Shown in pieces: positions 52,210 to 55,544 of a DNA stretch of 64,000 bases. The DNA comes from Armatimonadota bacterium. GTDB lineage: Bacteria; Armatimonadota; Fimbriimonadia; Fimbriimonadales; Fimbriimonadaceae. The stretch spans positions 372,001-436,000 of the forward strand of contig JAEURN010000008.1 in NCBI GenBank assembly GCA_016789105.1, in the 5' to 3' direction. The number at the start of each line of letters is the position of its first letter. The stretch's first letter is position 1. The notes under the pieces are model-generated. The model made no database searches. It was not told the origin of the DNA and worked only from the letters and a program-made list of their open reading frames with translations. The position numbers were made by a program, and so were the translations under genes.

Positions 52210-53142
52210 ATGCCCCACCCCGAGCGGTCGACCGCCGTCCAACAGGCCAAGCGGTCAGTTTTGGCGGGGATGGCGGTCAACAGCGTTTTGGTGCTGGTTA
52301 AGGGTGTGGCCGGGGTGGCCGGGCACTCGCAGGCACTTGTCGCCGACGCCATCGAATCGGCTAGTGATGTCGTGGGATCGGCGGTCGTCTATGCGGGGCT
52401 TAGGGTTGCCGGCGGGCCACCCACCGAATCCCACCCTTATGGCAAGGGCCGCGCCGAGCCCTTGGCAGCCGCGCTGATCGGGCTCCTCATGCTGGCCGCT
52501 TCGGCAGGCATCGTCATCTCTGGAATCCAGCACATCGTCGAACCGCACCAAAAGCCGGAGCCATTCACTCTGGTCACATTGGTCGTTGTCATCGCCGTCA
52601 AAGAAGGCATGTTCCGCTTTGCCCAACGGCAAGGCCGCGAAACCGGCAGCATCGCGGTGGAGGCCGACGCCTGGCACCACCGGTCGGACGCGTTCACATC
52701 GCTGGCCGCGTTCGCCGGCATACTGATGTCTCTGACTTTGGGCCCCGCCTTTGCATCGGCCGATGCCTGGGCGGCGCTGATCGCCGCCGTTGTCATCGCG
52801 GTCAACGCGGTGCAAATCATGAGGCCGGCGGTCGGGGAACTCACGGACGCGAACCCGGGGCAAGACTTGGTTCTCGAAGTCGCTCGGATCGCGCGCACCG
52901 TGCCTAACGTGAAAGGCACCCACCATTGCTGGGTCCGTAAACATGGCCTGGATTACTTTGTCGACCTCGACGTCCTTGTCGATGGCGACATCAGCGTCCG
53001 CGCTGGCCACGATATCGCGCACGAAGTCCACAACGCCGTCACCAACCAACTCCCTTTCGTCCGCCGGGTCTACGTCCACGTCGAACCGGAAGACGACCAC
53101 GGGCGGTTCCCCTTGGAGTGGGAAGGGCGCGAAGACTCCTAA
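52210..53142 (+). CDS. Cation diffusion facilitator (CDF) metal transporter
   Basis: A 310-residue CDF-type exporter with about six membrane spans. Metal-site residues: ALVADAIESASDVVGS in helix 2, SHPYGKGRAEPLAA following it, and DAWHHRSDAFTSLAAF in helix 5, the latter with HxxxD. The C-terminal cytoplasmic domain (HHCWVRKHGLDYFVDLDVLVDG, in parts) is His-containing. It exports Zn, Fe, Mn or Co; specificity cannot be read. It follows the DinB gene by nine bases; co-transcription is plausible. Confidence 0.92.
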   Translation: MPHPERSTAVQQAKRSVLAGMAVNSVLVLVKGVAGVAGHSQALVADAIESASDVVGSAVVYAGLRVAGGPPTESHPYGKGRAEPLAAALIGLLMLAASAGIVISGIQHIVEPHQKPEPFTLVTLVVVIAVKEGMFRFAQRQGRETGSIAVEADAWHHRSDAFTSLAAFAGILMSLTLGPAFASADAWAALIAAVVIAVNAVQIMRPAVGELTDANPGQDLVLEVARIARTVPNVKGTHHCWVRKHGLDYFVDLDVLVDGDISVRAGHDIAHEVHNAVTNQLPFVRRVYVHVEPEDDHGRFPLEWEGREDS

Positions 53143-54104
53143 TCCCGGCCCACAAATCCCAGTTTCCGGAACCAGTAGTAGATCCCAAACCCGGAGAGGA
53201 CCATTAGGCCGACCGCAAAGGGGTAGCCGAGTTTCCAGTCGAGTTCCGGAATAAATTTGAAGTTCATGCCGTAGATCCCGGCGATTAGCGCCGAGGTCAT
53301 CAAGATCGTGCTGATGATCGTCAGGGTCCGCATGATCTCGTTGAGGCGGTTGCCTGTGATGCTCAACTGGACATCCATCAAACCGCTGACCATGTCTCGG
53401 CCCAGGTCGATGTTCTCGGCCAGACGCAGGCTGTGGTTGTACAGATCCTGGTATTCGGGCAGGTCTCCGGGCTGCACAGAAGGCTGGCCGATGCGGATTA
53501 GCGAGTTGATGTTTTCCCGGAGCGGGGAGACATTTTTCCGGACCGTCAGCAGCATTTTCTTGATCCGGATCGCTTCGCCGGAGTGATTGCCGTTTTCGGC
53601 AAAGATCCTGTCTTCCAAATCGTCGATTCGGTCGTGGAGTTCGTCCACAACCGGGAAAAACGAATCGACGCACAGATCGAGGACGGAATAGAGGAGCCGC
53701 GATGAGGTGGATCCGTGCTCTTGCGGTTCGCACGACCACGCGTCGAACAGTTCATCGAACGCCGGGATCGGGGACTTGCACACAGTCAGCAGACTGCTTT
53801 GGGTCACGTATACGGCAATAGGGATGTATTCGGGTTCTGGACTGCACCGGCTGAAGGTGCACAACAGGGCGATTCCGGCGGGGCGGCTCTCGATTCCGAT
53901 CCGGAAAAAGCCGTCGGCAAAGTCCCCGGCCGTCAGCGGGAACTGGGCGGCCAATGCGGCCAACGGATCCGGCGGATCGGGCAGCGGGTGCCCTGCTAAT
54001 AGCCACGTCAAACCGTTTGCGGGGAACGGCTCTCCGGGGTGGAGCGTGACCACTCGCCCCGTTGGATCCAGGCATGCGGCACGGTATTCGGGGGCTAGCG
54101 ACAT
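53139..54104 (-). CDS. corA: CorA-family magnesium/cobalt transporter
   Basis: A 321-residue protein with the CorA architecture: a cytoplasmic N-terminal alpha/beta domain, a long central helix with LHDRIDDLEDRIFAENG, and two C-terminal membrane helices. The first ends with the YGMNF pore signature (IAGIYGMNFKFIPE). CorA pentamers conduct Mg2+. ATG at 54104 is chosen; a longer ORF would run into the tRNA. Its stop overlaps the CDF gene by four bases. Confidence 0.93.
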   Translation of the reverse strand: MSLAPEYRAACLDPTGRVVTLHPGEPFPANGLTWLLAGHPLPDPPDPLAALAAQFPLTAGDFADGFFRIGIESRPAGIALLCTFSRCSPEPEYIPIAVYVTQSSLLTVCKSPIPAFDELFDAWSCEPQEHGSTSSRLLYSVLDLCVDSFFPVVDELHDRIDDLEDRIFAENGNHSGEAIRIKKMLLTVRKNVSPLRENINSLIRIGQPSVQPGDLPEYQDLYNHSLRLAENIDLGRDMVSGLMDVQLSITGNRLNEIMRTLTIISTILMTSALIAGIYGMNFKFIPELDWKLGYPFAVGLMVLSGFGIYYWFRKLGFVGRD

Positions 54105-54144: not shown

Positions 54145-54239
54145 TGGCGGGAACGTGTGGGAATCGAACCCACCCGGCGCCCAAAAGCGCCACACGCGGT
54201 TTTGAAGACCGGGAGGCACACCAGCACCCATCCGCTCCC
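54145..54239 (-). tRNA. selC: tRNA-Sec (anticodon TCA)
   Basis: On the minus strand this is a 95-base tRNA with a TCA anticodon (54205-54203, loop CTTCAAA) that reads UGA. It has a long acceptor (5' GGGAGCG paired with CGTTCCC), a large D arm, a long variable arm with GGCGC/GCGCC, a T arm GTGGG-TTCGATT-CCCAC and an encoded CCA after discriminator G. These are the features of bacterial tRNA-Sec. It lies between corA and the GH16 gene. selA, selB and selD are not in the window. Confidence 0.93.
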
Positions 54240-54278: not shown

Positions 54279-55064
54279 TCAGGGCACATAAACCCGGACA
54301 TAGTCCACTTCGAGCGTGGCTGGGAATTCCGTATGGGCCGGATCGCCCCCGGTGGAGCCGATCGCCAAGTTGAGCAACAGCCAGTGCGGTTGGTGGAACG
54401 GGTTGAACCCGTCGGGGTTTTCCGCCTTGGAAACATCCGTCTGGTTGAGCAACTCACCATCGACCGAAAGCCGGATCGTTTCGGCGGTCCAATCCATTAC
54501 CCAAGTGTGGAAATGCCGCCCCCAATCGGGGTCGCGACCAAAAAAGTGAGAGATCGGGGTCTTGACCGTGTCCCAAACCTGGTGGTCCGCCGATCCATAG
54601 GCCGTGTTGGCCAACAACTGCTGTTGGTAAAACTCCATGACATCGACCTCACCGCACTGGGGCCACGGACGGTCGGCCCCTTTCGTCCAGATGGCGGGCC
54701 AGAGCCCGTTTTCGGGTCGGAACCGCGCCCTCACCTCCAAGCGGCCATACCGCCAAGAGAATTTCCCCCTCGTCACCACCGAGGCCGAGGTGTAATCCGC
54801 AGAAGCGCGGTTGGTTTTCCAATCGGCAGAGCCTTTGACATAGCCCGGATTCGAAAACTCTTCCCGACGGCCTTCGATGACCAGGAACCCGCCTTCGACC
54901 CGGGCGTTCTCCGGCCGGTAATATTGCAACTCCTTGTTGCGGACGAACCCGACTTCGAAATCCCATTTGGCTGGATCGGGCCGGCCCACATAGTCAAACT
55001 CGTCGGAAAAAGCCAGTTGCCCGGGCTCTCTGATTTGGGCCAGGGCCAGCAATGCCGGAAACAT
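54279..55064 (-). CDS. GH16 endo-beta-glucanase-like glycoside hydrolase
   Basis: A 261-residue GH16 enzyme of the laminarinase group. The retaining catalytic motif ExDxxE is present as GEVDVMEF (Glu 139, Asp 141, Glu 144). FSDEFDYVGRPDPAKWDFEVG and RYGRLEVRARFRPENGLWPAIW are typical of the beta-jelly-roll. It hydrolyses beta-1,3- or mixed-linked glucans or related galactans. The short hydrophobic start (MFPALLALAQ) is a weak export signal. Confidence 0.92.
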   Translation of the reverse strand: MFPALLALAQIREPGQLAFSDEFDYVGRPDPAKWDFEVGFVRNKELQYYRPENARVEGGFLVIEGRREEFSNPGYVKGSADWKTNRASADYTSASVVTRGKFSWRYGRLEVRARFRPENGLWPAIWTKGADRPWPQCGEVDVMEFYQQQLLANTAYGSADHQVWDTVKTPISHFFGRDPDWGRHFHTWVMDWTAETIRLSVDGELLNQTDVSKAENPDGFNPFHQPHWLLLNLAIGSTGGDPAHTEFPATLEVDYVRVYVP

Positions 55065-55124: not shown

Positions 55125-55544
55125 TTGACGATGATGAAAGTCGAATGGAAAGGCGGGATGGCGTTTGAGGCAACGGGTGCCAATGGCGAGTCGTTTGTGA
55201 TGGATGCCCATCCAGACCATGGCGGGGAAGATGGCGGAGTCTCTCCGGTTGAAGCATTGCTCGCGGCAGCGGCTGCTTGCTCAGGGATGGATGTGGTCAG
55301 CATCCTCCGAAAAAAGCAGCAAAAGCTGACCAGCTACCGGATCGAAGTCTCGATCGAACGCGACCCACCGGGCGAATGGCCACGCCCGATCAAGAAAATG
55401 AGCGTTCGGCACATCGTGCAAGGCGATGGACTTGACGAAGCGGCCGTTGCCCGGAGCATCCAGCTTTCGGATGAAAAATACTGCACCGTTTTGGCCACTC
55501 TCCGCCTGTCCCCGCAAATCGAATCCACCTACACCGTCGAGTGA
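55125..55544 (+). CDS. OsmC/Ohr-family peroxide-handling protein
   Basis: A 139-residue OsmC-like protein. The two catalytic cysteines appear in VEALLAAAAACSGMDVVSIL (Cys 50) and DEKYCTVLATL (Cys 115). In this family the two Cys reduce organic peroxides or exchange thiols. A double ATG start; 55125 is the outer choice. A strong terminator follows the stop. Confidence 0.88.
   Translation: MTMMKVEWKGGMAFEATGANGESFVMDAHPDHGGEDGGVSPVEALLAAAAACSGMDVVSILRKKQQKLTSYRIEVSIERDPPGEWPRPIKKMSVRHIVQGDGLDEAAVARSIQLSDEKYCTVLATLRLSPQIESTYTVE

Follow-up and report, generated by a model that had tools for sequence, protein, structure and literature searches.

The only tRNA gene in the 64 kb stretch of DNA analysed here (contig 8:372001-436000, hereafter the window) encodes a selenocysteine tRNA (tRNA-Sec). 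Judged from sequence, it is almost certainly a functional selC that serves selenocysteine (Sec) decoding in this genome, because the remaining Sec machinery and at least four likely selenoproteins are encoded there as well. Sec is the 21st amino acid, and the Sec-decoding trait is ordinary in bacteria. The family Fimbriimonadaceae would gain a complete form of the trait together with a predicted, small, redoxin-type selenoproteome; a literature search, judged by titles and the starts of abstracts, found no paper on selenocysteine or selenoproteins in this family.

The tRNA-Sec gene

The initial annotation had read the gene with confidence as tRNA-Sec from its TCA anticodon, long variable arm and encoded CCA, and ARAGORN called tRNA-SeC(tca) over the same coordinates (Table 1). 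RF01852 (tRNA-Sec) was the only Rfam family to reach its threshold in the window (gathering score 47); the match, over model positions 1-91 of 91, scored 72.7 bits (E = 5.7e-13). In common with the bacterial tRNA-Sec of RF01852, the gene has a TCA anticodon, a long variable arm, eight acceptor and five T positions (8+5) and the tail GCCA, in which the G73 discriminator and the encoded CCA are both present; it belongs to a known kind and is ordinary within it. The acceptor comprises eight bases on each strand that form seven standard pairs and, at the eighth place, a G.A mispair. The T stem adds five pairs, and the 13-step acceptor/T helix is kept with 12 standard pairs and this one mispair.

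Look-alikes of selC exist (PMC7609411), and a tRNA of this appearance could in principle serve another amino acid, as an allo-tRNA or a selC* tRNA-Cys through which UGA is translated as Ser or Cys. Such a role is very improbable here. In the excerpts available of the same source, the acceptor branch of allo-tRNAs is 8/4 or 9/3, and tRNA-Cys identity elements are present in selC* tRNAs (PMC7609411), whereas the tRNA in the window has 8+5 positions and G73, and its genome has selA, selB and selD.

Table 1. Coordinates of the tRNA-Sec gene, its parts and neighbours (window numbering), and of the redoxin pairs (genome:contig:positions)
Feature	Position	Strand	Remarks
tRNA-Sec gene (selC)	54145..54239	-	ARAGORN tRNA-SeC, anticodon tca; Rfam RF01852; encoded GCCA end
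Anticodon TCA	54203..54205	-	tRNA position 35
Acceptor stem, 5' side, GGGAGCGG	54232..54239	-	mispaired G at its last base, 54232
Acceptor stem, 3' side, ACGTTCCC	54149..54156	-	A facing that G at its first base, 54156
CorA-like Mg2+ transporter gene	53139..54104	-	PF01544, 186.5 bits; start read by eye
Glycosyl hydrolase family 16 gene	54279..55064	-	PF00722, 56.9 bits; upstream same-strand neighbour
Tandem Sec/non-Sec redoxin pair, own genome	G000:C2:55111-56102		
Tandem Sec/non-Sec redoxin pair, same genus	G151:C1:219540-220509		
Tandem Sec/non-Sec redoxin pair, same genus	G152:C10:28438-29404		

The eighth pair of the acceptor/T helix

The E. coli pairs C7-G66, G49.U65 and C50-G64, which we take to be pairs eight to ten of the acceptor/T helix, do not occur in the tRNA of the window, where G.A, G-C and U-A stand at these places. 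In E. coli tRNA-Sec, which differs in having C-G, G.U and C-G there, they act as SelB identity elements and repel EF-Tu (PMC9976931, excerpt). These pairs were not treated as defining for all bacteria, because they were established for E. coli and most of the sampled Bacillota also lack them.

Of the 47 tRNA-Sec from the window's family, 45 have a non-standard eighth pair, as do 97/113 from the phylum, against 3/18 from genomes of other named groups. A tRNA structure specific to the lineage was considered on these counts, but the eighth pair is equally non-standard in 28 of 30 Bacillota; the claim was therefore dropped and the mispair is regarded as a widespread sub-type. The sets from Bacillota (the 30 best-scoring loci from 81 genomes) and from the phylum (118 of the listed rows) are both biased to high scores, and their rows are related by descent. 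Of the 118 phylum loci tried, 116 were parsed and 113 used; the rows left out were G103 (T-loop pattern not matched), G037 (no ARAGORN call) and the mis-anchored G255, G256 and G267, of which G103, G255 and G256 are mispaired by eye and G267 is paired. For the other named groups, 18 of 20 loci were clean (L248 and L252 were dropped). The sub-type is frequent beyond the phylum and the rows share descent, so the mispair is no novelty of this genome.

Across the pooled samples the ninth pair is G-C in 123 of 128 mispaired tRNAs and G.U in 18 of 33 paired ones. Within the family, the 3'-side A of the eighth position faces G in 17, A in 15, C in 11 and U in none of 43 cases, which suggests a mispair that has been kept. 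The Bacillota resemble the tRNA of the window in their mispaired eighth position, accompanied by a G-C ninth pair in 26 of the 28 cases, but differ in that the 5' base is G in 28/28, whereas G, A or C stands opposite A in the window's family.

The G.A pair maintains the 13-step helix as part of this sub-type, and may help SelB to choose the tRNA and EF-Tu to refuse it. A broader proposal, which we consider rather doubtful, is that bacterial tRNA-Sec comes in two designs of the SelB/EF-Tu discrimination box: one with a paired eighth position, often followed by a G.U ninth pair (E. coli), and one with a mispaired eighth position, mostly opposite A, followed by a G-C ninth pair (Armatimonadota and Bacillota). 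In the second design the signal would lie in the mispair as such, and pairing would seemingly be avoided. Unusual bacterial tRNA-Sec of 7/5 and bulged forms have been described (PMC5330540; in Epsilonproteobacteria, PMC4607533). As far as excerpts of these two sources go, such forms share the limit of only seven standard acceptor pairs, but drop or bulge one nucleotide, whereas the tRNA of the window keeps both eighth-position bases facing each other. A symmetric mispair at the eighth pair is not among the unusual forms in the available portions of PMC5330540, PMC7609411 and PMC4607533.

Sec machinery and proposed mechanism

The genome (2,746,268 bases in 11 contigs, 99.96% complete) encodes the complete Sec machinery, namely tRNA-Sec with selA, selB and selD. 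The three protein genes all exceed their curated cut-offs: selA with 432.3 bits on contig 3, selB with 293.5 bits (332 with a neighbouring piece) on contig 5, and selD with 350.6 bits at contig 8:168775-169692. SelA is also supported by Pfam (384.5 bits). For SelB, the winged-helix domain PF09107 was matched with 68.9 bits, and the Pfam beta-barrel model gave 26.1 bits, just below its cut-off of 27. None of the three genes occurs in the 64 kb window; they are scattered elsewhere in the genome, and the tRNA gene (contig 8:426149-426239) indeed stands apart from them, as the initial annotation had noted. The absence of any of them from the genome, on which that annotation had made its reading depend, was not observed.

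By the known bacterial pathway, SerRS would charge the selC transcript with serine, and SelA would turn the seryl form into Sec-tRNA with selenophosphate supplied by SelD. SelB would then carry the Sec-tRNA to UGA codons lying directly 5' of an mRNA hairpin (SECIS). UGA would be read as Sec at least in selD, a TlpA-like redoxin, a deiodinase-like protein and one further redoxin.

Candidate selenoproteins

It had been proposed that no gene of the window contains an in-frame TGA and that the selenoproteins are encoded elsewhere, and both parts agree with the results. When the window was scanned for in-frame TGA flanked on both sides by coding-like sequence, 4 strict and 22 loose candidates emerged, none of them credible or in a redox-like context; the loose candidates were judged by eye, and two of the strict candidates resemble, by eye, the end of one gene beside the start of the next. 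In the genome as a whole, in-frame TGA was sought in the SelD, PF00578, PF02627, Fdh (TIGR01591) and GrdA families, and the number of likely selenoproteins predicted from sequence is thus at least four: SelD and three proteins of the redoxin fold. In selD, the TGA is codon 12, at the catalytic position (MRLTHLVSCSGUAGKL; motif CSGUAGK). The AhpC/TSA family (PF00578) has 23 matches in the genome, at least three of which contain one internal TGA, in keeping with the earlier suggestion that peroxiredoxin homologues be searched. The redoxin-fold candidates are a lipoprotein-like TlpA-like redoxin (209 aa; FWAFWUSSC), a deiodinase-like protein (188 aa; SYTUPPF; PF00837, 116 bits, E = 2.2e-33) and a redoxin of 169 aa (EGUGAC). 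Bacterial families of Prx-like UxxC and of deiodinase-like selenoproteins are already known (PMC9312934, PMC13188914; excerpts). Gene callers unaware of Sec would cut selD and the three redoxin-fold genes at the TGA.

All four genes combine an in-frame TGA at a Sec/Cys position with a SECIS-like hairpin 20-35 bases past the TGA; the stems have 7-8 pairs and the three-base loops begin with G (GTT, GGT, GGT and GTC). The hairpin rule (stem of at least 6, loop of 3-6 with G in the first two bases) was fixed only once the first folds were known, and it is also satisfied at 258 of the 3103 control codons taken from window genes. Two of the four genes, selD and the deiodinase-like one, have a further hairpin closer to the TGA with a 3-base loop that does not start with G.

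A relic, in which tRNA-Sec persists after Sec has gone out of use, would fit a selC gene that stands alone in a genome where the searches for fdh and grd selenoproteins found none. GrdA was matched in 0/8 genus genomes, and the same search matched none of the control genomes either. Against disuse stand the complete set of sel genes in this genome and its four or more redox genes that contain a TGA, together with a strong tRNA-Sec match in 8/8 genus genomes searched, and we judge it highly unlikely. Formate dehydrogenase, which the initial annotation had listed as a possible selenoprotein, was rejected as a candidate: TIGR01591 was matched in all eight genus genomes, none over the cut-off and none with a TGA. 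One such match is a 730-aa formate-dehydrogenase-like oxidoreductase of the genome studied here (G000:C11:12967-15012; 581.5 bits, below the Fdh-alpha cut-off, no TGA), and oxidoreductases of comparable strength occur in 6 of the 8 genus genomes. The AhpD-like family PF02627 gave 11 matches in 7/8 genus genomes, none with an internal stop.

The TlpA-like redoxin with FWAFWUSSC keeps its TGA in the same-genus genomes G151, G152 and G156. In the genome studied here and in G151 and G152, it adjoins a second gene of the AhpC/TSA family that has no TGA, forming a tandem Sec/non-Sec pair (Table 1). A thioredoxin-like gene with LWAHWUGPC in G156:C34 (L138:1167-1928) is a further likely selenoprotein; among the matches listed, it has a TGA only in G156. 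SelD without an in-frame TGA was seen in three genomes that have tRNA-Sec (G157:C33:8056-8979, G109:C4:459051-459938 and G128:C96:10641-11546). Because the SelD of the same-genus G157 is one of these, the presence of selD does not by itself require Sec in every case.

Gene neighbourhood and distribution of the trait

The tRNA-Sec gene sits in a short gap between the family 16 glycosyl hydrolase gene and the CorA-like gene, its downstream same-strand neighbour 40 bases past it. The nearest named relatives of the CorA protein are from two metagenome-assembled genomes (MAGs) of Fimbriimonadaceae (53 and 58% identity), a family within the Armatimonadota, in line with the host presumed at the outset. 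The tRNA-Sec genes of these two MAGs are letter-identical to those of the same-genus genomes G157 and G153. Among the seven other same-genus genomes, with some counts limited by contig ends, CorA directly follows tRNA-Sec in four and a family 16 glycosyl hydrolase gene adjoins it in one. Homologues of window 52210-53142 (cation-efflux-type) and 55125-55544 (OsmC-like), names judged from reading the sequences, lie near tRNA-Sec in five and six of the seven, respectively.

ARAGORN called tRNA-SeC in 7/7 other same-genus genomes. In 85 genomes of the family, a strong tRNA-Sec match was found in 48 and SelD over its cut-off in 49, with both in 47. The exceptions are G076 (74% complete), which has tRNA-Sec but no SelD above its cut-off, and two genomes with SelD but lacking tRNA-Sec, G091 and G105. 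SelA exceeds its cut-off in 50 of the 85, including 47 of the 48 genomes with tRNA-Sec; the remainder are G105, G116 and G125 (88, 70 and 77% complete). The Rfam search exceeded its cut-off in 196 of 291 genomes, a figure not used as a count of tRNA-Sec genomes because 5 of the 14 control genomes exceed it too; other long-armed tRNAs probably account for some of the rows near 47-57 bits. A tRNA-Sec in G256:C520 (L212) ends in TCCA and, by eye, apparently lacks G73.
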